DNA from: Jiangella asiatica
Lineage (GTDB): Bacteria > Actinomycetota > Actinomycetes > Jiangellales > Jiangellaceae
DNA: 64,000 nucleotides
Assembly (NCBI RefSeq): GCF_004349065.1
Contig: NZ_SMKZ01000013.1
Span: 62,001-126,000 of the forward strand
Reading direction: 5' to 3'
Shown here: positions 50,988 to 64,000 of the stretch, one piece after another
Numbering within the stretch: the first letter of the stretch is position 1
How the letters are laid out: the number at the start of each line of letters is the position of its first letter
Position numbers and translations under genes: made by a program
Notes under the pieces: model-generated
The model's database searches: none
What the model saw: only the letters and a program-made list of their open reading frames with translations
Told to the model about the DNA's origin: nothing

Positions 50988-52502
50988 TTAACGGTCCTTT
51001 CCGACGATCGGACGCATCCGAAGGACGTTCCACGAGACCGGTTCCAGCACGAGGTTCCCGTCCGGCACTGGGCGGCTGACCGGTACCACCGTCGCCGGAG
51101 CGCCGGCGACGTTGGTGGCGCTCGAATCCGGGTGCGAAAGCACCAGATGCTCGACCAGCCGGTAGTCGGCCAATTCTCCGCCCAGGGTCACCTCCATTGG
51201 GTGAGCTGTCCAAGGCGATCGATTCACGACGAAGACCACGAGTTCGTCGTCGTCGGCGTTCCACACGGCCGCGCTCACGATGGATGCGACCCGTCCGTAC
51301 TTCTCGGTCTCGTGCTCGGCGGACATGGCCTCGGCGGCCCGAAGCACTTTGCCGCGGGCGAACCGGGCGACGTGGGCGAACGGGTAGAACGTCGTCTGCC
51401 GCCACCCCGGCCCGCCCGGCTCCGTCATGATCGGCGCGATCACATTGACCAGTTGCGCGAGGCAGCCGATTCGTACCCGGTCGGCATGATTGAGCAGGCA
51501 GATCAGCAGCGATCCCACGACCACCGCGTCGGTGACCGAGTAGCTCTCCTCGGCCAGGCTGGGCGCATGGCGCCACGCCTCGCGGGTCGAGTCGTGCGAG
51601 TGGAACTCCGTCTGCCGCCACACGTTCCACTCGTCGAACGACAGGCCCATGGTCTTCGTGCTGCGCAACTTCTCCTTGATGTGGTCGCAGGTGGCGGTGA
51701 CGGCGCCGATGAAGGACTCCATCGCGTCCGACGATGCCAGGAAAGAGACCTGGTCGTCGTCGCCCTCGTAATAGTCGTGCAGCGAGATGTAATCGACCTG
51801 GTCATAGGCCTCTTCCAGTGCCGTTGCCTCCCAGGCTCCGAAGCTCGGCATCCGGTTGTTGGAGCTGCCGCAGAGGACCAGTTCGATGCCGGGGTCGACG
51901 CGTCTCATCGCCTTCGCGGCCTCGACGGCGACCCGGCCGTACTCCCACGCCGTCTTGTGCCCGATCTGCCAGGGCGCGTCCATCTCGTTTCCGAGACACC
52001 ACATGGTGATGGCATGCGGCGACGCGACGCCGTGCGCGCGGCGCTGATCGGACCAGTAGGTCCCGCTGGGGTGGTTGCAGTACTCGACGAGGTTGCGTGC
52101 GGCGTCCACGCCCCGGGTTCCGAGATTGACCGCGAGCATCATCGTGGTGCCTGCCTGCCGGCACCACTGGGCGAACTCGTTGAGACCGACCTGGTTCGTC
52201 TCACGTGCGCGCCACGCCAGGTCCAGCCGGACCGGTCTTTCCGACGCGGGGCCGACACCGTCCTCCCAGTCGTACGCGGAGACGAAGTTTCCGCCGGGAT
52301 AGCGGACGACCGTCGGACCAAGCTCACGCACCAGTTCCAGGACGTCGGCGCGGAAGCCGGAACGGTCGGCGGCCGGATGTCCCGGCTCGTAGATGCCTGT
52401 GTAGACAGCCCGTCCCATGTGCTCGACGAACGACCCGAACAGCCTGCGGTCGAGAGCGGCCGTTTGGAACAAGCTGTGCAGAACCAGCCGGACCGGGTTC
52501 AC
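50988..52502 (-). CDS. Alpha-L-arabinofuranosidase, GH51
   Basis: 504 residues from GTG behind GAGGAG. GH51 landmarks: RYPGGNFVSAYDWEDG (about 69), the acid/base Glu in WCLGNEMDAPWQIGHK (about 172) and the nucleophile Glu in SFDEWNVW (about 290). No signal peptide, so it trims imported arabino-oligosaccharides. Length is normal for intracellular enzymes. It heads a two-gene operon with an FAD oxidoreductase; an IS element begins 98 bp upstream and may have replaced its promoter. Confidence 0.92.
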   Translation of the reverse strand: MNPVRLVLHSLFQTAALDRRLFGSFVEHMGRAVYTGIYEPGHPAADRSGFRADVLELVRELGPTVVRYPGGNFVSAYDWEDGVGPASERPVRLDLAWRARETNQVGLNEFAQWCRQAGTTMMLAVNLGTRGVDAARNLVEYCNHPSGTYWSDQRRAHGVASPHAITMWCLGNEMDAPWQIGHKTAWEYGRVAVEAAKAMRRVDPGIELVLCGSSNNRMPSFGAWEATALEEAYDQVDYISLHDYYEGDDDQVSFLASSDAMESFIGAVTATCDHIKEKLRSTKTMGLSFDEWNVWRQTEFHSHDSTREAWRHAPSLAEESYSVTDAVVVGSLLICLLNHADRVRIGCLAQLVNVIAPIMTEPGGPGWRQTTFYPFAHVARFARGKVLRAAEAMSAEHETEKYGRVASIVSAAVWNADDDELVVFVVNRSPWTAHPMEVTLGGELADYRLVEHLVLSHPDSSATNVAGAPATVVPVSRPVPDGNLVLEPVSWNVLRMRPIVGKDR

Positions 52503-52599
52503 GCCGACTCCTCGCTGTCCGGTCGGGGCCTGGGCCCGGAGACTTCCGGCACCGGTGTCGACGACAGTTCCAGCACGCTGCGCCCACCGAGTCGGGGTG

Positions 52600-53969
52600 T
52601 GTCTGATTAACGGTGGATCCGGTCTTGGCATCGGCTAGTTTCCGGTTGGTGTGATGCGGCCTTCGAACGTGATCGCGAACGCGTTGAGGGCCGGTTTCCA
52701 CCTCATGGCTCATCGTGCCCGGCCTGGGCCGGTCGGGTCCAGCGACCGGGTCACCAGGTAGAGGCATTTCAGGGCGGCCTGTTCGGTGGGGAAGTGTCCG
52801 CGGGCGCGGATCGCGCGTCGGTAGCGGGAGTTGATCGACTCGATCGCGTTGGTCGAGCAGATCACCCGCCGGATCTCCTGGTCGTAGTCCAGGAACGGAA
52901 CGAACTCCGACCAGGCGTTCTCCCACAACCGCACGATGGCCGGGTACTGCTGCCCCCAGTTGGCGGCGAACTCGTTCCAGCGTTCCTTGGCCGCGGCCTC
53001 CGAAGGTGCGGTGTAGACCGGTTTGAGCTCGCGTGACATCTGGTCCCAGTACCGGCGCGACGCGTACCGGAACGTGTTGCGCAGCAGGTGGATGATGCAG
53101 GTCTGCACGATCGCGAGCTCCCACACGGTGGTGATCGCCTCGGGAAGCCCCTTCAAGCCGTCGCACACCACGATGCACACGTCCTGGGTACCGCGGTTCT
53201 TGATCTCGGTCAGCACCTGCAGCCAGAACTTCGCGCCTTCACCGCCGTCGCCGGCCCACAGCCCGAGGATGTCCCGCTCGCCGGTCACGGTGACGCCGAT
53301 GGCGACGTAGATCGGGCGGCTGGTGACCTGACCATCGCGGATCTTTACATGAATAGCGTCGATGAACATCACCGGATATACGCGTTCCAGTGGCCGGGCG
53401 CACCACTCGGTCATCTCGCCGACGACCTTGTCGGTGATCCTGGAGATCGTGTCCTTGGACACCTTTGCGCCGTAGACCTCGTCGAAGTGCGCGGCGACCT
53501 CACCAGTGGTTAGGCCTTTGGCAGTCAGCGACAACACGATCTCATCGATCCCGTTCAGACGGCGCTGCCGCTTCTTCACGATCTGCGGTTCGAACGAGGA
53601 CTCGGTGTCGCGGGGGACCTCGATCTCGACCGGCCCGATCTCGGTCAGCACCATCTTCGTGCGGGTACCGTTGCGCGAGTTCCCGCTGTCCCGCCCGGCC
53701 CGGTCGTGCTTCTCATAGCCCAAGTGCTCGCTCATCTCCGCCTCCAGAGCGGTCTCGAGCACGTTCTTCGTCAACTGGTTGAGCAGCCCGTTCGGGCCCA
53801 CCAGATCGACGCCCTGCTCCTTGGCCTGCGCCAGCAACTGCTCGGCCAGCGCTTGCTGATCCACCTGGTCCGCCACGGGCTCCAGTGTCTCGGTCAAGAT
53901 CAATCCTTCCCGCCAAGCACCCCTGCTCGGCGCGTCAGACCAAGACCAAGATCCACCGTTTTTCAGACA
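52600..53969 (-). mobile_element. IS256-family insertion sequence
   Basis: About 1370 bp. The ends are inverted repeats: TGTCTGATTAACGGTGGATC (left) and TGTCTGAAAAACGGTGGATC (right, complement), both then continuing to a GTCTTGG block. One transposase gene. The 8 bp on each side (52592-52599 and 53970-53977) do not match, so no target duplication is visible; recombination or later change at one end is likely. Confidence 0.85.
52635..53903 (-). pseudogene. IS256-family transposase with a nonsense codon
   Basis: The MULE-type transposase runs 397 residues (DDE region: FIDAIHVKIRDGQ about 170, VVCDGLKGLPEAI about 240, CSTNAIESINSRYRR about 348 with Glu) and then meets TGA at 52712-52710. The same frame continues AMRWKPALNAFAITFEGRIT to TAG at 52635, the normal family C-terminus, in which Trp (TGG) stands at the position of the TGA. 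A single-base change therefore removes the last 25 residues. The catalytic residues are intact, so activity is uncertain. Confidence 0.8.
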
Positions 53970-53970
53970 G

Positions 53971-54030
53971 TCCCGGGTTGAGCAGCCGACCCCAGTGCAC
54001 GTCCTGTGTCATCGACCAGCGTGCGAGTGT
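53971..54030 (-). pseudogene. C-terminal integrase scrap beside the IS
   Basis: On the minus strand the frame reads ARWSMTQDVHWGRLLNPG, clearly related to ARPSMTQDVYMGRRVLNPG of the integrase remnant at 40913, and the DNA of both is alignable. It stops at the IS right end. Only the region around the catalytic tyrosine is left. Confidence 0.7.
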
Positions 54031-54875: not shown

Positions 54876-56405
54876 TCACGCCGGCCATCCGCCCTGCATC
54901 GGCACCCCGGCGCCGACCGGCACGTCGAACGGCAGCCCACTGGACTCGTCCCGGCAGATTCGCCGCAGCCCATCATAAAGGGCGGCGGCGACGTCGGGTC
55001 GGTGCCGCCACAGGTCATCGGTCTCGTACGGGTCGGCGACGACGTCGTACAGCTGCCCGACGGGGTTTTCCTGGCCCCAGGCCACGGAGTCGTGCGGGCG
55101 CCCGGACCCAGACGAGAACAGCGAAGTGATGGACGACTCGGAAAACCCGCCGCCGGACCCGGCCGAGAAGATCGCCTTCCACCGGCCGGACCGGACAGCG
55201 AACCGGCCGGCCAGGCTGTGGTGCACGATCGCCCGTCCGGGCGGTACCGACCCGGTTCCTGCCAGCACCGGCAGCACGTCCAGCCCATCCTCGGCCGTGT
55301 CCGTGGGCACCGGCATCCCGGCCGCCGTGAGCACCGTCGGCAGCACGTCAGTCAGACAGACCGGGTCGTCGCGGACCGTGCCGGGCGGGAACCGCCCGGG
55401 CCAGCGCGCCACGAGCGGTTCGCGGTGCCCGCCGTCCCACAGGTCGCCCTTCTGGCCGCGGTAGGGCCCGTTGGCCCGGTGCACGGCCGGGTCGCCGTCG
55501 TCGGTGAAGATCATCGGCGCACCGTTGTCGCTGGTGACGATCACGATCGTGTCGTCGGCTAGGCCTGCGTCGTCCAGGGCGGTCAGCAGCTCACCCACGG
55601 CCCAGTCCACCAGGCACACCGCGTCGGCCCGATCACCCAGACCAGACCGGCCTCGCACGAACGACGGGGGCACGCACGGCCGGTGCGGCGCGGACGGCGC
55701 CAGGTAGCACAGGAACGGCCGGTCGCGGTCCTGCTCGCGCAGCCAGAACACCGCTTCCTGCGTCAGTCGCACGTCCACCTCGTCCTCGGCGAACCCTTCG
55801 ACTTGTAACCCCGGCCGCTGTTCGGCCAGGAACGTCACCTTCTCGCGGTCGGGCACCCCGACGGTCCGATCGCCGTCCAGGAAGCAGTACGGCGGCATGT
55901 CCAGTGATCCGGCCAGCCCGAAGAACCGGTCGAAGCCCAGCACGGTGGGGCCTCCCGTGAACGGCTGCGTGTAGTCGATGTCGTGGCCGGCATCGGTCTC
56001 CATGTCGTCGTGCAGGACGGCGCCGGGCTCGAACGCGGACCGGACGGTGCCGTCACGGTGCCGCCAGCCCAGGCCTAGGTGCCACTTGCCGAAGTACCCG
56101 GTGGTGTAGCCGGCCGACTGCAGCAGCGACGCCAGTGTGGGACGCTCGGGCTCCACCAAGGGCGGCCCATGCCCCATCAGGACGAAGTTCTTCAACGGCC
56201 CGCGCCAGGCGTAGCGACCGGTCAGCAGCGCGTACCGGCTCGGCGTGCATACCGCGGACGCGGAGTGGCAGTCGGTGAGGCGCACACCCTCACGGGCCAG
56301 CCGGTCGATGTTCGGGGTGGGGATCGGCGACCCGTAGCAGCCTAGGTCGCCCCACCCCATGTCGTCGGCCAGCACGACGACGACGTTGGGTCGGCGGCCG
56401 GCCAT
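54876..56405 (-). CDS. Sulfatase (type I, formylglycine-dependent)
   Basis: 509 residues from ATG at 56405. ADDMGWGDLGCYG (about 13-25) gives the metal-binding Asp pair, SAVCTPSRYALLTGRYAWR (about 50-68) is the canonical C-x-P-S-R formylglycine motif, and FGKWHLG (about 103) and TSDNGAPM (about 285) complete the active site. No signal peptide is seen, so it acts in the cytoplasm on imported oligosaccharides. Last gene of the operon. No formylglycine-generating enzyme is encoded in the window, so maturation must rely on one elsewhere. Confidence 0.92.
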   Translation of the reverse strand: MAGRRPNVVVVLADDMGWGDLGCYGSPIPTPNIDRLAREGVRLTDCHSASAVCTPSRYALLTGRYAWRGPLKNFVLMGHGPPLVEPERPTLASLLQSAGYTTGYFGKWHLGLGWRHRDGTVRSAFEPGAVLHDDMETDAGHDIDYTQPFTGGPTVLGFDRFFGLAGSLDMPPYCFLDGDRTVGVPDREKVTFLAEQRPGLQVEGFAEDEVDVRLTQEAVFWLREQDRDRPFLCYLAPSAPHRPCVPPSFVRGRSGLGDRADAVCLVDWAVGELLTALDDAGLADDTIVIVTSDNGAPMIFTDDGDPAVHRANGPYRGQKGDLWDGGHREPLVARWPGRFPPGTVRDDPVCLTDVLPTVLTAAGMPVPTDTAEDGLDVLPVLAGTGSVPPGRAIVHHSLAGRFAVRSGRWKAIFSAGSGGGFSESSITSLFSSGSGRPHDSVAWGQENPVGQLYDVVADPYETDDLWRHRPDVAAALYDGLRRICRDESSGLPFDVPVGAGVPMQGGWPA

Positions 56406-58033
56406 CAGCAGTCCTCGGTGCGCATGATCCGCACCTCGTCGGTGGTGGCCGGGTCGATCTGCACATTTCCGTCGGCCGCCGAGGCCAGGCACACGCCGTC
56501 GATCGTCACGTCGACGACATTGATGTTGTGCACGAGGTGGGTTTGGCCGTCGGCCTGGATCCCGGTGACGACGTTCGGGTGCCGGAACGGCTTCTGCGCG
56601 GTGATGTCGCGGAAGATCACGTCGGAGATCTCACCGTAGCCCAGGGCCGGGTCGTACCACTTGTTGTTCTCGAGCGGGATGTAGAACAGCCGCCAGTTCG
56701 CGTCCTCGACCCGGATGTTCTCGAACAGGTATCCGCGCATGTGCCCACTGCCGGCGTGCCGCGACCGGAAGATGGCCTGCGGCGGGAACCGATAGTGCTC
56801 GGCGTGGATGATGTCGTTGTCGTAGACGTGGAAGTTCTCGACGTCCTCGTGGATATTCCAGCTGATATTGAACGGCCCGCCGTTCTCGAGCTGCCAGATG
56901 ACGTTGCGCCGCACGACGTTGTCGCCCCAGTGCAGTTTGACCGAGTCGTCGTTGACCTTGATGAAATTATTTTCGATCACGCCGGTGTTGCCGCCCACGA
57001 CGCCGTCGGTGCTGAACCACCAGCTCATGATCTTGAGGTTGCGCAGGGTGACGTACTGACCCAGCGCCCGGACATTGAACCGTGGGCCGTCCACGAACGT
57101 GATGCCGTCGACCAGCACGTTGGCTGAGTCAAGGATGTTGATCAAGCCCGGCTGGCTTTTGTTCTGGTCCTGGTCGCCGGTGTCAAGGAACAGCCCGGAC
57201 ACGATGCCGCGACCCTTGATGACGACGTTCTCCAGGTTTTGGCCCACGAACGCACCCTCGACCCAGGCGCCGCCGGCCAGGTACACCGTCTCGTTCGAGT
57301 GCAGCTGCACGTCGCGGCCGAGGCGGTGGATGCCGGGGCCAAAATACCGGACGTTCGGGTCGTCCGGGTCAGGCACGTCGGTCTCGGGCGGGTTGGCGAA
57401 CACCAGCATCGCGTGCTCGACCGGGTTCGTGGTGTTCGGCTCAAACTCCACCGAGACGTTCGCGGCGTCGGTCAGCACGAACCGGCAGCTGCCGTCGTGG
57501 AATCGGGTCGGGACGCGCAGGGACGAGGGCCGCACCCGGCAGCCGGTGGCGGTGTCGGACAGGTCGCGCACTTCGACGTGCACGATGCCGCTGAAAGAGA
57601 ACGAGGTCCAGGAGGTGTCGGTGCCGAGGTTGGTGTCGGGTTTGCGGGCGTCGGTCTGGTAGACGAACGATTGCTGCGCCCGGCCGAACTGGCTGACGGA
57701 CACGGCGTACCGCTGCGATGCGGCGATGCCGTCCGGCGCGGGGTAGGTGACCAGTTCCGGACGCCCCGGACGCGGTGCCTCGGTCTCGATGCGTCCGTAC
57801 GGCAGCTGCTGCCGGCGTTCGGCGACGTCTTGCACGACCAGGCGGCCGGCCGCAGTGATCTCGTCCGCCAGCCGGTCCACTTCCTCGACCGGCCCGCCGA
57901 TCGGGGTGGCGACGCCGCCGTTGTCATACCGCATGCCGGTGTAGTGCGGGGATTCGTCGTCGGCGGCCACCGTCGCCGGCGCGGCCAGGGACAGCGTCGC
58001 CGCCGTGGCGACGGCGAGTACGCGGAGCTTCAT
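56405..58033 (-). CDS. Secreted beta-helix glycosidase, GH49/GH28-like
   Basis: 542 residues with a Sec signal (1-23, LAAPATVAA). After an N-terminal beta-sandwich (about 30-200) comes a right-handed beta-helix: YFGPGIHRLGRDVQLHSNET, YLAGGAWVEGAFVGQNLENV, WWFSTDGVVGGN and NFIKVNDDSVKLHWGDN (about 335-365). The Asp pair in VNDDSVK and the Asp in STDG sit where the catalytic acids of GH49 dextranase/isopullulanase-type enzymes lie. The true substrate may be a sulfated polymer, given two sulfatases in the operon. Family assignment is from memory of the motif style. Confidence 0.7.
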   Translation of the reverse strand: MKLRVLAVATAATLSLAAPATVAADDESPHYTGMRYDNGGVATPIGGPVEEVDRLADEITAAGRLVVQDVAERRQQLPYGRIETEAPRPGRPELVTYPAPDGIAASQRYAVSVSQFGRAQQSFVYQTDARKPDTNLGTDTSWTSFSFSGIVHVEVRDLSDTATGCRVRPSSLRVPTRFHDGSCRFVLTDAANVSVEFEPNTTNPVEHAMLVFANPPETDVPDPDDPNVRYFGPGIHRLGRDVQLHSNETVYLAGGAWVEGAFVGQNLENVVIKGRGIVSGLFLDTGDQDQNKSQPGLINILDSANVLVDGITFVDGPRFNVRALGQYVTLRNLKIMSWWFSTDGVVGGNTGVIENNFIKVNDDSVKLHWGDNVVRRNVIWQLENGGPFNISWNIHEDVENFHVYDNDIIHAEHYRFPPQAIFRSRHAGSGHMRGYLFENIRVEDANWRLFYIPLENNKWYDPALGYGEISDVIFRDITAQKPFRHPNVVTGIQADGQTHLVHNINVVDVTIDGVCLASAADGNVQIDPATTDEVRIMRTEDC

Positions 58034-58054
58034 CCTTGCGACCTCCTCGATATG

Positions 58055-59677
58055 TCAGCAGGTGCGCGCGAGCCGGTCGACCAGCTGCGCTTCGTACAGC
58101 GACGCCGGGAGCAGGCCGGGCCGGTTGGAGCCCTCGATCCAGCCGGCCGGTTCGGTGAACGGGCCGATGCCGGACACGTCGCCAGTGCAGCCGATCGCGT
58201 AGTTCTGTGCCGTCGGGGGCTGCTGGACGACGATCCGGCCGGGCGCGCCGGCGGTGCAGTTCCACGCCACCGAGTTCACCGCAGCCCAGCCCTGATTGGT
58301 GCCGTAGTTGCCGCGGCACCCCAGCAGCAGTGTGACCATCGCCTCGTGCGGGTCGACGTCGCGGTGATTGTCGTAGAGCAGACCCTGGCTCCAGCCGGCG
58401 TGGCCCTCCGAGGCGTTGTGGCTGCCCTCGCCCTTGCAGCGCAGGAACACAATGCCCGACGTCTTGGAGCGGCCGAACGCGACGAAGTTGTGCCGGCCCT
58501 CGGTGGCGTGGCAGTCGGCGAACAGGATCTGCTGCGAGTACGGCCCGGCGGCGAAGTTGTAGCGCCGCGAGCCGGCCAGCCGCGAGACCGGGTCGAACGC
58601 GCGGCAGTTCTCGATGGTGGCGCGGGTTGTCTCGGTGGTGCGCACGCCCGAGAACCAGAAATGCCGGACCGTGCAGTTGCGCACCCAGGCGTCCTCGACC
58701 AGCGACAGCGCCACGCCGGCACCGGCGTGGTCCTCGTCCTGGTCCGGCTGGCCGGCGTAGCTGATGTCGATGTGCAGGTCCTCGACACCGACCTCGCGCA
58801 CCAGCCTGGCCCGATCCCACCGGTACACGTACGACGGTGACAGCTCCCGCCGGAGGGTGGCGAACAGCGGGACGTCGACGGTGACCCGCTCGCCGTCGAC
58901 CGCCTCGACGTAGCGGTTGTACAGGATCGGCTCGGCACCGACCCGCCACGGCGGCCCGCCGTGCGTGCCGCCGCCGTCGACCGCGGCCAGCCACGCCGCG
59001 GTGCACGGGTGCACGATCACGACGTTGTCGCCCGAGGTAAGGACGCCGGGCTCGGCTACCCGGAACGTTCGCTGCCCCACGCCCACGACGTCGGTGGTGA
59101 TGTCGGTGCGGGTGCCGGGGACCTGGCCGGCCCACAGCGTCGTCCCCGGTCCCCAGGTGTCCGCGCCGCCGGCCAGGATGACCGGCGGGTGGAGATGACT
59201 GGTGCCGGTGCCGCGGACGACGGTGTTCGTGGCGGGGTCGCTGCCCGATCCGGCACCGCGCAGCACCACCCCGTCGCGATTCAGCCGCAGCGTCCCGGCG
59301 ACCGGGTACTCACCGGGCTCCAGCTGCAGGGCGCCGCGGAACCCGTCTGGGCCCAGCGGCAGCCGGCCAACGGCCTCGAGCGCGGCCTGCAGGTGTCCGG
59401 TGTTGTCGCCGTCGACCGGCCCAACGGTTCGGGCCGGCGAGACGTCCGGCAGCGGCCGCTCGCCGCAGTGATAGCCGGCGTGGCCGAAGTCCGGCAGCCG
59501 ATTGCCGTCGCCGTCCCGGCGGTACACCAGCCGGCCCCGGCCGGTGACCCTGACCGGAGCGGCCTGCCAGGACGCCGAGGCGGTTGCCGCAACGTCGCCC
59601 TCGGCACCACCGGGCATCGCGGCGCCGGCCGCCACCGTGCCGCCGGCCACCAGGAACGAGCGCCGCGTGAGAGTCAC
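58055..59677 (-). CDS. Tat-exported right-handed beta-helix protein (lyase/hydrolase candidate)
   Basis: 540 residues from GTG behind GAGGGG. A twin-arginine signal TRRSFLVAGGTVAAGAA (4-20) predicts export in folded form. A pectate-lyase-like beta-helix follows, with VVLRGAGSGSDPATNTVVRG (about 132) and many turn repeats, e.g. DLHIDISYAG, WVRNCTVRHFWFSGV and ILFADCHATEGRHNFVAFGR. Such folds are used by polysaccharide lyases and hydrolases of several families; I cannot place it in one. With the neighbouring GH49-like protein it would make the extracellular attack on the polymer. Confidence 0.75.
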   Translation of the reverse strand: MTLTRRSFLVAGGTVAAGAAMPGGAEGDVAATASASWQAAPVRVTGRGRLVYRRDGDGNRLPDFGHAGYHCGERPLPDVSPARTVGPVDGDNTGHLQAALEAVGRLPLGPDGFRGALQLEPGEYPVAGTLRLNRDGVVLRGAGSGSDPATNTVVRGTGTSHLHPPVILAGGADTWGPGTTLWAGQVPGTRTDITTDVVGVGQRTFRVAEPGVLTSGDNVVIVHPCTAAWLAAVDGGGTHGGPPWRVGAEPILYNRYVEAVDGERVTVDVPLFATLRRELSPSYVYRWDRARLVREVGVEDLHIDISYAGQPDQDEDHAGAGVALSLVEDAWVRNCTVRHFWFSGVRTTETTRATIENCRAFDPVSRLAGSRRYNFAAGPYSQQILFADCHATEGRHNFVAFGRSKTSGIVFLRCKGEGSHNASEGHAGWSQGLLYDNHRDVDPHEAMVTLLLGCRGNYGTNQGWAAVNSVAWNCTAGAPGRIVVQQPPTAQNYAIGCTGDVSGIGPFTEPAGWIEGSNRPGLLPASLYEAQLVDRLARTC

Positions 59678-59687
59678 GTCCGGCCCC

Positions 59688-61097
59688 TCAGCCGAAGCGC
59701 TTCTGGTACTTGGCCTCAGGATCCCACTCGTTCAAGCCCGGACAGCCGTGCGCCGGTGCCAGCACGTAGTGGTCGTACGTCTCGACCAGCCGGTCACGCA
59801 GCAGTCGGTGATGATGCGCCACCTGCTCGGCGTACGCGGGATCGTCCACGAGGTTGGTCAGCTCGTACGGGTCCTCCTGCAGGTCGAAGAACTGCCACGG
59901 CCGGGCGCCGTGCGCGTCGCCGAGAACGGTGTACTTGTAGCGGCGGGTACGGAACGCCCGCCAGGTCTCCTCGTGGAACGGTGCGTCGGGGCGCAGCTCG
60001 GACACGAACTCCAACAGGACGCCCTCGCGTTCGAGGCGCCCGGCCGACCCGTCCATCAGGGGCGTGAGGTCCGTCCCCGGTTTGGGATCGCGGGGCGCGT
60101 GTCCGGCGAGACCCAGCAGTGTCGGGAACAGGTCCTCGGTGCAGACGGGGTCGTCGACGACGCGTCCGAGGCCGTGCGACACGATCAGCGGGATGCCCAC
60201 GGACTCCTCCCACGGCCGTTGTTTGGCCAGCAGGCCGTGGCTGCCCAGCAGCTCGCCGTGGTCGGCAGTGAGGGCGATGACGGTTTCGTCGAGCATGCCG
60301 GTCTCGGCCAGGGTGTCGACGAGCCGCCCGACGTTGTCGTCCAGGTTCTCGATCATCGCGTAGTAGACCCGCAGGTCGTCCAGCAACGACGACCCGTGTG
60401 GGCCGCGCTTGCGGTATTTGCGGTCCAGCTCGACGTTCTCGCGCAGCACGATGTCGCGGTCGCGCCAGCGCTCCAGGTACTCCTCCGGCGCGGTGAACAG
60501 CGGGTGCGGCGGCTCCACCGACAGGATGGAGGCGAACGGGCGCTCGCGGCGGGCCGGCTCGCGGATCCAATCCATGGTGAGGTCGAACAACCCGTCCGTC
60601 TGGTAGCCCTCGAGCTTGCACGGGGTGGGGTCGTCGTCGTGGAAAACATAGGTGTCGTACGGGTCGTTGCAGATGTCGAAGCCGGCGAAGCGCTGCCAGC
60701 GGCCCTGGAACGGCCGCGGCACCGCGGTGCGCGACGTCTTGACCACGGTGTGCCCCGGCAGGTGCCCGAACCCGCCGTACAGGTGCCACTTGCCGAACAT
60801 CCCGGTGTCGTAGCCGGCATCGTGGAACTCGTCGGCCAGGGTCCGCTCCGCCGGGGACATTCGCCACTCGATCGCCGGGATGGCCCGCGTGTGCGCGTAC
60901 TCGCCGGTCTGCAGGCTGAACCGGAACGGCACGCACACCGGGTACGTCGACGAAGCCGCAGCGAACCTGGTGCCGCGCGCGGCGAGCGCGTCGATGTTCG
61001 GGGTGCTGACATTCGGGTCGCCGTAGCATCCCAACGCGAACCGGCGCAGCTGGTCGGAAATGATCAGGATGACGTTCGGGCGGGCGGTACCGCTCAC
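59688..61097 (-). CDS. Sulfatase with C-x-P-F-R active-site motif
   Basis: 469 residues, GTG overlapping the permease stop (GTGA). RPNVILIISDQLRRFALGCY (6-25), the formylglycine segment PVCVPFRFSLQTGEYAH (about 49), FGKWHLYGGFGH (about 97) and TADHGELLGSHGLLAKQ (about 285) place it among type I sulfatases of the choline-sulfatase/polysaccharide-sulfatase group. The usual Ser after Pro is Phe here; the essential Cys, Pro and Arg remain. No signal peptide. Different enough from the sulfatase at 54876 to act on another sulfate position. Confidence 0.9.
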   Translation of the reverse strand: MSGTARPNVILIISDQLRRFALGCYGDPNVSTPNIDALAARGTRFAAASSTYPVCVPFRFSLQTGEYAHTRAIPAIEWRMSPAERTLADEFHDAGYDTGMFGKWHLYGGFGHLPGHTVVKTSRTAVPRPFQGRWQRFAGFDICNDPYDTYVFHDDDPTPCKLEGYQTDGLFDLTMDWIREPARRERPFASILSVEPPHPLFTAPEEYLERWRDRDIVLRENVELDRKYRKRGPHGSSLLDDLRVYYAMIENLDDNVGRLVDTLAETGMLDETVIALTADHGELLGSHGLLAKQRPWEESVGIPLIVSHGLGRVVDDPVCTEDLFPTLLGLAGHAPRDPKPGTDLTPLMDGSAGRLEREGVLLEFVSELRPDAPFHEETWRAFRTRRYKYTVLGDAHGARPWQFFDLQEDPYELTNLVDDPAYAEQVAHHHRLLRDRLVETYDHYVLAPAHGCPGLNEWDPEAKYQKRFG

Positions 61098-61975
61098 TTC
61101 ACTCCTCCAGAGGTCAGGCCGGCGACGAACCGGCGCTGCAACACCAGGAACAAGATCACGACAGGGCCGAGCATGAAGATCGCCGCGGCGCTGGTCAGCG
61201 CCAGGTCCGTGGAGAACTGGTCCTGGAAGGCCAGGAAGCTGGTCGAGATCGGCCGCAGCGCCGGGTCGTGCACGAACGTGATGGCCCAGAAGAACTCGTT
61301 CCAGGCCCACAGCCCCGCGATCAGCCCGACGGTGAGAAACCCGGGCCAGGCCAGCGGCAGCATCACTCGCATGATGATCCGCAGCTCCGACGCGCCGTCC
61401 AGCCGAGCGGCCTCCTGGTAATCCTTTGGCACCTTTATCAGGAACGAGCGCAACAGCAGTGTCGCGAACGGTGAGTCGGTGGCCCAGTAGATGATCATCA
61501 GCCCGAACAGGCTGTCGGTGAGGCCGAGGTTCGTCCACATGAAGAACAGCGGCACCAGGAACAGCTGCACCGGCAGGGCGCTGCCGAGGAACAGCCAGCC
61601 GATGACCGCGCCGCTGGCCGGCACCTCCAGATGGCTGAGTGCGTAGGCCGCCAGCCCGGCGATCACGCAGACTCCCGCCACCGTGCCCAGGCACAGGATC
61701 GCGCTGTTGCGCATGGTCGTGGCGAAGTCGCCCTGGGTCCAGGCCTGGGCGAAGTTGTCAAGACTCAGCTCCGTCGGCGGCGTCAGCGGGCTGGTCCCGA
61801 TGGACGCGTTGTCCTTCAGCGCGTTGAACACCAAAGTCACCAGTGGTCCGATCGCGAACAAGGCGAGGACCACGAGCACCAGGTAATACGGCCGGTGCGA
61901 CGGTTCGCGGCGACGCCGGCGTGGTCCGGCGTCGCCGGCCGGCGGGGCCGGACGGGTCAGCGTCGGTGCGGTCAT
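61094..61975 (-). CDS. ABC sugar permease, MalG type
   Basis: 293 residues, ATGA overlap with the permease gene upstream. Six predicted helices; EAA loop YQEAARLDGASELRIIMRVM (about 187-206). Co-translated with the sulfatase gene that follows, so transport and desulfation are tightly linked. Confidence 0.9.
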   Translation of the reverse strand: MTAPTLTRPAPPAGDAGPRRRRREPSHRPYYLVLVVLALFAIGPLVTLVFNALKDNASIGTSPLTPPTELSLDNFAQAWTQGDFATTMRNSAILCLGTVAGVCVIAGLAAYALSHLEVPASGAVIGWLFLGSALPVQLFLVPLFFMWTNLGLTDSLFGLMIIYWATDSPFATLLLRSFLIKVPKDYQEAARLDGASELRIIMRVMLPLAWPGFLTVGLIAGLWAWNEFFWAITFVHDPALRPISTSFLAFQDQFSTDLALTSAAAIFMLGPVVILFLVLQRRFVAGLTSGGVK

Positions 61976-62919
61976 GCCTCCCACCCCCGCTTGCGGACCA
62001 ACTGGTAGACGGCGAGCACGAGGGCGGTGACGAACGCCATCGAGAGCCCGAGGCTGGCGGCATAGCCCGCCTCGTATTGGCTGAACGCGACCTTGTACAT
62101 GTAGGTGGACACCACCTCGCTGGACCCCGCGGGTCCGCCCTGGGTCATGACGTAGATGTAGTCGAACGCCTTGAGCGACCAGATCACCGTCATCAGCACC
62201 AGGAACACGACGGTCGGCCGGATGCCCGGCAGCGTCACCGCGGTGAACTGTTGCCACCGGTTCGCGCCGTCCACCTTGGCCGCGTCGTACAGCTCCGGGT
62301 CCACGCCCTGCATGGCAGCCAGGAAGATGACTGCCACGAAACCCCAGAAATGCCAGTCGACGACAAAGTTCACGCTGATCAGCGACGTGCTGGTGTCGCC
62401 GAGGAACGCGACGTCGCCGATCCATGGCACGCCTAGCTCTCCCAGCGCGTGCCCGATGCCGTTGGTGGGGCTGAGCAGGCTCTTCCACACCGATGCGTTG
62501 ACCACGCTGGCCACGACGTACGGGATGAAGAACAGCGCCCGGAACAGCATCTGAAACCGGGTGATCTGCGACAGCAGGAACGCGCCGAGCAGCCCTAGGC
62601 CCATCGGGACGCTGAGGAACAGCACGAACCAGATGAGGTTGTGCATGAGCGCCGCCCGCACGAGGGGGTCGCCGAACGCCCGGGTGTAATTGTCCAGGCC
62701 GACGAATGTGGCCGGGCCGAGACCGCTCCAGTCGGTGAACGAGTACCAGACGGTCGCCACCGACGGGCCGACGACGACCAGCAGGTTCAGTCCGAGTAGC
62801 GGGGCGAGGAACAACAGCGCGCGGGCCTTGCGCCGGCGGGCGGCACGGCGGTTGGCGCGCTGCTGCTCCGCCCGCAGGGGACGGCCGGTGCTCGGCGGCG
62901 CCTGGGCGTGGAGGGCCAT
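61972..62919 (-). CDS. ABC sugar permease, MalF type
   Basis: 315 residues from ATG at 62919. Basic N-terminus, six predicted helices and EAA loop LYDAAKVDGANRWQQFTAVT (about 210). It starts 5 bp after the binding-protein stop. No ATPase gene in the visible operon. Confidence 0.9.
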   Translation of the reverse strand: MALHAQAPPSTGRPLRAEQQRANRRAARRRKARALLFLAPLLGLNLLVVVGPSVATVWYSFTDWSGLGPATFVGLDNYTRAFGDPLVRAALMHNLIWFVLFLSVPMGLGLLGAFLLSQITRFQMLFRALFFIPYVVASVVNASVWKSLLSPTNGIGHALGELGVPWIGDVAFLGDTSTSLISVNFVVDWHFWGFVAVIFLAAMQGVDPELYDAAKVDGANRWQQFTAVTLPGIRPTVVFLVLMTVIWSLKAFDYIYVMTQGGPAGSSEVVSTYMYKVAFSQYEAGYAASLGLSMAFVTALVLAVYQLVRKRGWEA

Positions 62920-62924
62920 GCGCC

Positions 62925-64000
62925 CTACGCCCTGCTGATGATCTGGGGGACGTCGCCGGCCGTGCGCTCCTCCTGAAACAGCTGATCCATTTGCTCGCAG
63001 TAGTCGGCCGGCGACAGGTCCCCGGTCAGCACCTTCTCGAAGCCCTCGTACACGAACGCGTTGGCCTTCGGCGGCCACCAGGTCCAGGTGACGTAGCCGT
63101 AGTTGCCGGCGTCGACGGCCGTGTTCAGCCCGTCCAGCACGCGGCGCGAGCGCTCGTCGATGCCCGCGGGGACCTCCGCGGCGTCGAACTGGATTGGGAT
63201 GTTGTACGTCGCCGGGACGTCGGCCATCCGCTGCAGCGCGGCCTCGCGGTCGCCGTAGTACCAGTTGAGGTACTCCGCAGCCGCGTCCTGACTGTCGCTG
63301 TGGGCGTTGATGCCCAGCGACCCGCCGATGCCCAAATCGAACAACGGGTAGGCGACCTCGTCGCGCAGCGCCGGCCACGGTGACCAGTCCCACTCGTTCT
63401 CGTTGTTAGCGGCCGTGCCGAAGAAGTTGCCCACCGAGCTCATCCACCACACGCCCTGTGGCACCATCGCGACCGTGCCGTTGCCGAAGTTCGCGCCGAC
63501 CTCCTGAGCCGGCACGGAGAAGTAGGTCTCGGCGCCCCCGCCGAACCAGCCCTTGTCGAACCAGCTCCTGAGCAGCTCGACGGCCTCGACGAACACCGGC
63601 TCGGTCCAGGTGATCTCGCCGGTGAGTGCCTGGTAGACGGCCTCCGGCCCGGAGTAGTGGTTCCACATCGCCGACATGTGCCACTCCGAGGCGGCCTTCC
63701 AGTCGGTGTTCGACGCGCCGAACGGGGTGATGCCTTGCCCGTGCGCCTCCTCGGCCAGGCCCTCCAGCTCGGCCAGCGTGGTAGGAGCGCCCCAGCCCTT
63801 CTCGGCGAACAGCGTCTGGTTGGTGTACATCAGCAGCGTGTCCACTCGCATCGGCAGCGCGAACAGTTTGCCGTCGGTGGTGAAGGCCTCCATCGCCCAG
63901 CTGACGAGCGTGTCCGCCCAGGCCCACTCGTCGGCGTAGGAAGAGAGGTCGGCCAGCACGTCGGCCTTGCTCCACGCCAGGGTCTGGGTGGCGCTGGGGC
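62925..64000 (-). CDS. ABC importer substrate-binding protein, partial
   Basis: The frame is open to the window edge, so the N-terminus and signal peptide lie beyond 64000. The visible ~358 residues belong to a family 1 solute-binding protein: LFALPMRVDTLLMYTNQTLF and NFGNGTVAMVPQGVWWMSSV are typical lobe segments. It is the first visible gene of the sulfatase operon and presumably binds sulfated oligosaccharides. Confidence 0.88.
   Translation of the reverse strand, partial: PSATQTLAWSKADVLADLSSYADEWAWADTLVSWAMEAFTTDGKLFALPMRVDTLLMYTNQTLFAEKGWGAPTTLAELEGLAEEAHGQGITPFGASNTDWKAASEWHMSAMWNHYSGPEAVYQALTGEITWTEPVFVEAVELLRSWFDKGWFGGGAETYFSVPAQEVGANFGNGTVAMVPQGVWWMSSVGNFFGTAANNENEWDWSPWPALRDEVAYPLFDLGIGGSLGINAHSDSQDAAAEYLNWYYGDREAALQRMADVPATYNIPIQFDAAEVPAGIDERSRRVLDGLNTAVDAGNYGYVTWTWWPPKANAFVYEGFEKVLTGDLSPADYCEQMDQLFQEERTAGDVPQIISRA

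Follow-up and report, generated by a model that had tools for sequence, protein, structure and literature searches.

Most studies on the use of sulfated polysaccharides have dealt with Bacteroidota, Planctomycetota and Verrucomicrobiota. Among the described systems, PUL13 of Phocaeicola plebeius was found to be induced both by sulfated arabinogalactan from Codium and by wine arabinogalactan, and BpS1_8 (BACPLE_00986), a member of this locus together with BpS1_14, was assayed by Munoz-Munoz et al. 2021 as its S76C active form (PMC8406133). The window considered here, i.e., the whole stretch of 64,000 nucleotides that was analysed (C30:62001-126000 of the 7.03 Mb genome of Jiangella asiatica), ends within an operon which is probably a LacI-regulated, ABC-transporter-based one for sulfated-polysaccharide use.

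The first-pass annotation of this window had described one operon joining an ABC importer, two cytoplasmic sulfatases and two exported beta-helix proteins. This gene set was recovered on the minus strand, and reading of the contig beyond 64000 revealed an operon of 11 genes and about 14 kb that extends past the window end. All of its junctions are 1-4 bp overlaps or gaps of at most 21 bp, which excludes that the genes are grouped by chance. The unity of the operon was thus upheld, but the window edge is not its start, as about 4.5 kb more (the ADP-ribosylglycohydrolase-family gene, rbsD, rbsK and lacI) lie upstream. The genes, assigned to families with Pfam and NCBIfam profiles, are given below in operon order, followed by two features of the downstream flank; coordinates continue the window numbering beyond 64000.

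68867-67737 (extended coordinates), minus strand: lacI, the operon's first gene, upstream end at contig position C30:130867
67740-66814 (extended coordinates), minus strand: rbsK, 278 bits, just short of the ribokinase cut-off of 300
66801-66412 (extended coordinates), minus strand: rbsD, 122 bits, passing the D-ribose pyranase cut-off of 93
66397-64322 (extended coordinates), minus strand: ADP-ribosylglycohydrolase-family gene carrying an additional C-terminal region, domain 163 bits
62925-64325 (window part 62925..64000), minus strand: SBP, an ABC solute-binding lipoprotein (SBP_bac_1), PF01547 82.9 bits, cut-off 26
61972-62919, minus strand: ABC permease 1 (CUT1 type), PF00528 55.5 bits, start at 62919
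61094-61975, minus strand: ABC permease 2 (CUT1 type), PF00528 64.7 bits, 4-bp overlap with permease 1
59688-61097, minus strand: sulfatase A, predicted cytoplasmic, CVPFR motif, PF00884 158 bits, cut-off 25
58055-59677, minus strand: beta-helix 1, predicted Tat-exported, Tat motif TRRSFL, like the N-terminal part of DUF6298 proteins
56405-58033, minus strand: beta-helix 2, predicted Sec-exported, GH49-like by fold model, profile and Asp triad
54876-56405, minus strand: sulfatase B, predicted cytoplasmic, CTPSR motif, PF00884 194 bits, cut-off 25; the operon's last gene, its start at 56405 correcting the ORF limit of 56492
52595-53974, minus strand: IS256-family insertion sequence forming the downstream flank, 25-nt terminal inverted repeats, NCBIfam IS256 385.7 bits, cut-off 150
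50988-52631, minus strand: ArfA-type arabinosylfuranosidase (GH51-like) on the far side of the IS element, NCBIfam NF051901 699 bits, cut-off 625

The ArfA-type gene was dropped as an operon member, since the IS256 element and an ORF of opposite orientation separate it from the operon, and is regarded as no more than a possible partner. On the other flank, what appears to be a broken transposase gene is located around 69300-69750 (extended coordinates), upstream of lacI. The base composition did not look foreign, with a GC content of 70.4% in the operon and 70.2% in the window. Just upstream of lacI (C30:130884-130985), two 12-bp palindromes were identified, CAACACGTGTTG at 68884-68895 and CAACGCGTGTTG at 68974-68985, and these two sites are the sole matches to the pattern CAACRCGYGTTG in the 7.03 Mb genome. 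This confinement to the lacI upstream region suggests that the operon is under a dedicated local repressor, which would bind there. As to transport, the SBP carries the lipobox signal LLSAC after an RRRFL motif and shares one operon with two permeases, the composition of a CUT1 ABC importer. Among the 11 operon genes there is neither a dedicated ATPase gene nor SusC or SusD; in actinobacterial CUT1 systems a shared ATPase encoded elsewhere is common and an in-operon ATPase is optional.

Sulfatases A and B both combine a PF00884 domain with a CxPxR motif, as type I (formylglycine) sulfatases do, and since both start only a few residues ahead of this domain, they lack a signal peptide. The best PDB relatives of sulfatase A are 2qzu (yidJ) and 9ihk (S1_30A). 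Its DQ/DHG residue pattern is also found in phosphonate and phosphodiester hydrolases, for which reason its substrate could be another ester than sulfate. Sulfatase B has a paralogue at C22:138756-140255 (55% over 485 aa) which adjoins another SBP/permease set; the surrounding region, C22:130001-147327, is a second operon-like cluster comprising LacI genes, an SBP, two permeases and four sulfatases, the paralogue included. The initial reading of the window had been made dependent on a sulfatase-maturating enzyme in the genome, and one was indeed located: a full-length formylglycine-generating enzyme is encoded at C95:21859-22710 (E 8e-150 to PDB 6s07), in which the paired cysteines are kept and the stretch LCHESYCNRYR is conserved.

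Besides this one clear formylglycine-generating enzyme, the genome has 65 sulfatase genes (68 matches, all confirmed, split ones merged), the 11 other genomes of the genus giving 5-29 sulfatase matches. In a sample of 396 Actinomycetota genomes, loose first-look counts gave 67 sulfatase candidates here as compared to at most 25 in the other genomes listed. Nearly all of the sulfatases read in this genome carry CxPxR, and upon simple inspection only four of them have a clear export signal. An SBP gene lies within 5 kb of 19 of the 43 sulfatase clusters, and when the first gene of each cluster was tested this held for 16/43, where 15% were expected (p 4e-4), so that ABC-linked sulfatase loci are a recurring theme of the genome; in 11 clusters, the operon analysed here among them, the SBP within 5 kb is on the same strand.

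The protein expected to cut the polymer is beta-helix 2, whose N-terminus, MKLRVLAVATAATLSLAAPATVAA, is a Sec-type signal. A search with the single sequence returned only GH49 dextranases at moderate strength (9e-14 to 6nzs), while the profile of the beta-helix 2 group reached 6nzs at E 8e-35, a match in which TDG and NDD line up. An AlphaFold model built with 17 relatives in the alignment (pLDDT 84.8) possesses the N-terminal beta-sandwich and right-handed beta-helix of the GH49 fold, and both domains superpose on isopullulanase 3wwg (Z 34.3 and rmsd 2.5 over 432 aligned residues) and on dextranase 6nzs (Z 32.6); residues 18-90, missing from the Bacteroidota relatives, were modelled with low confidence. 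The catalytic Asp triad D343, D362 and D363 is invariant in 18/18 sequences and aligns (TDG ... NDD) with FQTDG and NDDA in Dex49A 1ogm. As judged from fold match, group profile and invariant triad, beta-helix 2 is a GH49-like hydrolase; it is not called a dextranase, and as its score against GH49N Pfam PF17433 (16.3 bits) is under the cut-off of 21.3, it is described as GH49-like and not filed as a GH49 member. The structure prediction proposed by the first-pass annotation thus succeeded for this protein, but not for beta-helix 1, which when folded alone reached a pLDDT of 31 and gave no usable model.

The closest relatives of beta-helix 2 are from Bacteroidota (33-42% identity). Scanning 84,980 species genomes identified 13 loci with relatives at 35-42% identity, all of them in Bacteroidota, and a sulfatase is present in each of the 11 loci with more than 7 kb of sequence, the two loci devoid of one being 6-kb contigs. 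A further locus on a Persicobacter plasmid encodes two relatives (37% and 33%) and six sulfatases. Taken together, a sulfatase stands beside the closest relatives in 12/12 loci with more than 7 kb, as compared to 0/9 rows of a separate clade (Fisher p 3e-6, the rows not being fully independent). A maximum-likelihood tree splits these nine sulfatase-free relatives by a branch of 97/94 from the window protein, the sulfatase-linked relatives and the dextranases; within the latter, larger group the precise position of the window protein has only moderate support (84/82), a long-branched Persicobacter row being located there. A distant Catenovulum relative (25%) has three sulfatases nearby, whereas annotated Streptomyces GH49 genes have alpha-glucosidase and ROK genes as neighbours. 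In five relatives (L098, L099, L100, L104, L107) a C-terminal GH43 domain is fused, with a second, unfused copy adjoining, and GH43 is also encoded directly ahead of some others. Within the phylum, neither beta-helix protein had a close copy among the 396 Actinomycetota genomes searched; the 11 other genomes of the genus hold no beta-helix 2 match and the family one distant match. In a low-GC actinomycetote (G233:C46), a membrane-anchored relative follows an SBP, two permeases, two GH65-phosphorylase-like genes and a HAD gene, which, with the genes judged by eye, suggests an unsulfated alpha-glucan locus.

Beta-helix 1 begins with VTLTRRSFL..., a Tat-type start, and has no Pfam match above cut-off. 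Over about 90% of its length it is 31-36% identical to DUF6298 proteins, in their N-terminal part, and to stand-alone homologues; those of Streptomyces clavuligerus and Paenibacillus carry no DUF6298 domain, and PF19815 (DUF6298) is likewise absent from beta-helix 1, whose end precedes it. The annotated neighbours of its relatives are GH140, GH43, GH95 or lyase-like genes, with a sulfatase beside them in 0/4 loci. Viral contigs yielded one fragment or nothing, and a literature search on DUF6298 found no paper.

In the pathway proposed for sulfated-polysaccharide use, the Sec-exported GH49-like beta-helix 2 would cut the polymer outside the cell, and the Tat-exported DUF6298-type beta-helix 1 may help in cutting. 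The SBP lipoprotein, the two permeases and an ATPase encoded elsewhere would then import the oligosaccharides, probably in still sulfated form. In the cytoplasm, sulfatases A and B, after maturation by the formylglycine-generating enzyme, would take off the sulfate, whereupon the ADP-ribosylglycohydrolase-family enzyme might split the pentosyl (riboside-like) bond and RbsD and RbsK would channel the released pentose into the pentose phosphate pathway. The order of events drawn in the first-pass annotation, i.e., cutting outside, ABC import and desulfation inside, is supported, as it fits the sequence and the maturating enzyme is encoded. Counted against this explanation are the beta-helix 1 relatives, never seen beside a sulfatase, the more distant beta-helix 2 relatives, whose loci resemble those of users of unsulfated glycans, and RbsK and RbsD, which point to ribose, not a usual sugar of sulfated polysaccharides.

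The latter point leads to a narrower form of the same explanation, in which the substrate would be a glycan or glycoconjugate that contains ribose and carries sulfate and whose ribosyl bonds are cut by the ADP-ribosylglycohydrolase-family enzyme, with RbsD and RbsK taking D-ribose. As a special case of the broader explanation it shares part of the confidence placed in the latter, and by itself it is considered unlikely. It is favoured by the scores of RbsD, above the D-ribose pyranase cut-off, and of RbsK, near that of ribokinase, and by the contiguity of rbsK, rbsD and the ADP-ribosylglycohydrolase-family gene with the transporter genes; yet the sugar is not fixed by family names, and to our knowledge there is no common sulfated riboside polymer. 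A locus in another species of the genus (G002:C1:7177812-7181215) was further observed, where an ADP-ribosylglycohydrolase-family homologue (53-55%) adjoins a sulfatase and ABC genes. The link of this family to sulfatases is hence not confined to the Jiangella asiatica operon; no rbsK or rbsD match was found beside the homologue, which speaks against ribose as the sugar.

Next to this, the operon might serve a plant or microbial polysaccharide that bears no sulfate (dextran, a pectin side chain or arabinan), the sulfatase-family proteins acting on minor decorations or on esters of a different kind. GH49 does include dextranases and isopullulanase, the distant beta-helix 2 relatives and all beta-helix 1 relatives found reside in sulfatase-free loci, and the ArfA-type gene is nearby. 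Nevertheless, this is judged distinctly improbable, given two sulfatases in the operon and a formylglycine-generating enzyme in the genome, the position of beta-helix 2 outside the sulfatase-free clade, and the absence from the operon of the alpha-glucosidase and ROK genes typical of the Streptomyces GH49 loci. That the operon handles small sulfated metabolites, its two exported proteins not being polymer-degrading, is hardly to be expected: CUT1 importers also take small molecules and RbsK and RbsD serve nucleoside and ribose catabolism, but beta-helix 2 combines a GH49-type fold with an intact triad, the solved GH49 members act on polymers, and a second exported beta-helix protein is encoded.

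Returning to sulfated-polysaccharide use as the preferred explanation, a substrate lead comes from P. plebeius DSM 17135, where a beta-helix 2 relative (L101:9935-11308; 36% over 448 aa) shares its locus with a sulfatase carrying Ser76 in SAPSR and with a second one carrying SSASR, both of them Ser-type, unlike the Cys-type sulfatases of the Jiangella genome. This locus appears to be PUL13, as the Ser76 matches that of BpS1_8 and as its second sulfatase and its GH2, GH27-type and GH43 genes agree with this assignment; a PDB look-up of the two sulfatases gave no near-identical entry. On account of this lead and of the GH43 domains fused to, or encoded ahead of, beta-helix 2 relatives, a sulfated arabinogalactan or arabinan-like glycan is the best single guess for the substrate class, albeit a doubtful one. 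CAZy may list a sulfated-arabinan activity in GH49, which would be a further lead; a literature search combining GH49 and sulfated arabinan found no paper. In its widest form, the proposal would be that beta-helix 2 and its Bacteroidota relatives constitute an undescribed GH49-fold group cutting a sulfated pentose-containing polysaccharide, and that the ABC-based pathway with cytoplasmic desulfation built around it is just one among many operons of this kind in an actinobacterium specialised in sulfatases; this is put forward tentatively, as a serious possibility that on balance we would not expect to hold in full. The operon and the 65-sulfatase genome suggest that some actinobacteria, too, specialise in sulfated polysaccharides by way of ABC import and cytoplasmic desulfation, and sequence comparison points to a GH49-like group that is linked to sulfatases and for which the P. 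plebeius arabinogalactan PUL offers a substrate lead.

Compared with known systems, beta-helix 2 shares with GH49 dextranase and isopullulanase the two-domain fold of beta-sandwich and beta-helix and an Asp triad at matching places, but it is only 22-23% identical to the solved members, stays under the Pfam GH49N cut-off and has closest relatives accompanying sulfatases instead of alpha-glucosidase and ROK genes. The N-terminal part of the DUF6298 (PF19815) proteins of Bacteroidota aligns with 90% of beta-helix 1, which in contrast is a stand-alone, predicted Tat-exported protein devoid of the DUF6298 domain. With PUL13 the operon has in common a beta-helix 2 homologue sharing its locus with two sulfatases and a desulfation thought to follow uptake. 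However, PUL13 relies on SusCD/TonB uptake, periplasmic Ser-type sulfatases and GH2, GH27 and GH43 enzymes, whereas the Jiangella operon has ABC uptake and predicted cytoplasmic Cys-type sulfatases, is devoid of GH2, GH27 and GH43 genes, and has in addition beta-helix 1, the ADP-ribosylglycohydrolase-family gene, rbsD and rbsK. As in sulfatase-rich SusCD PULs in general, sulfatases are clustered with exported glycan-cutting enzymes, but in place of SusC and SusD the operon employs a CUT1 ABC importer under LacI control, like other actinobacterial sugar operons. The known sulfated-glycan strategy of SusCD loci would thus be run here via an actinobacterial ABC operon.
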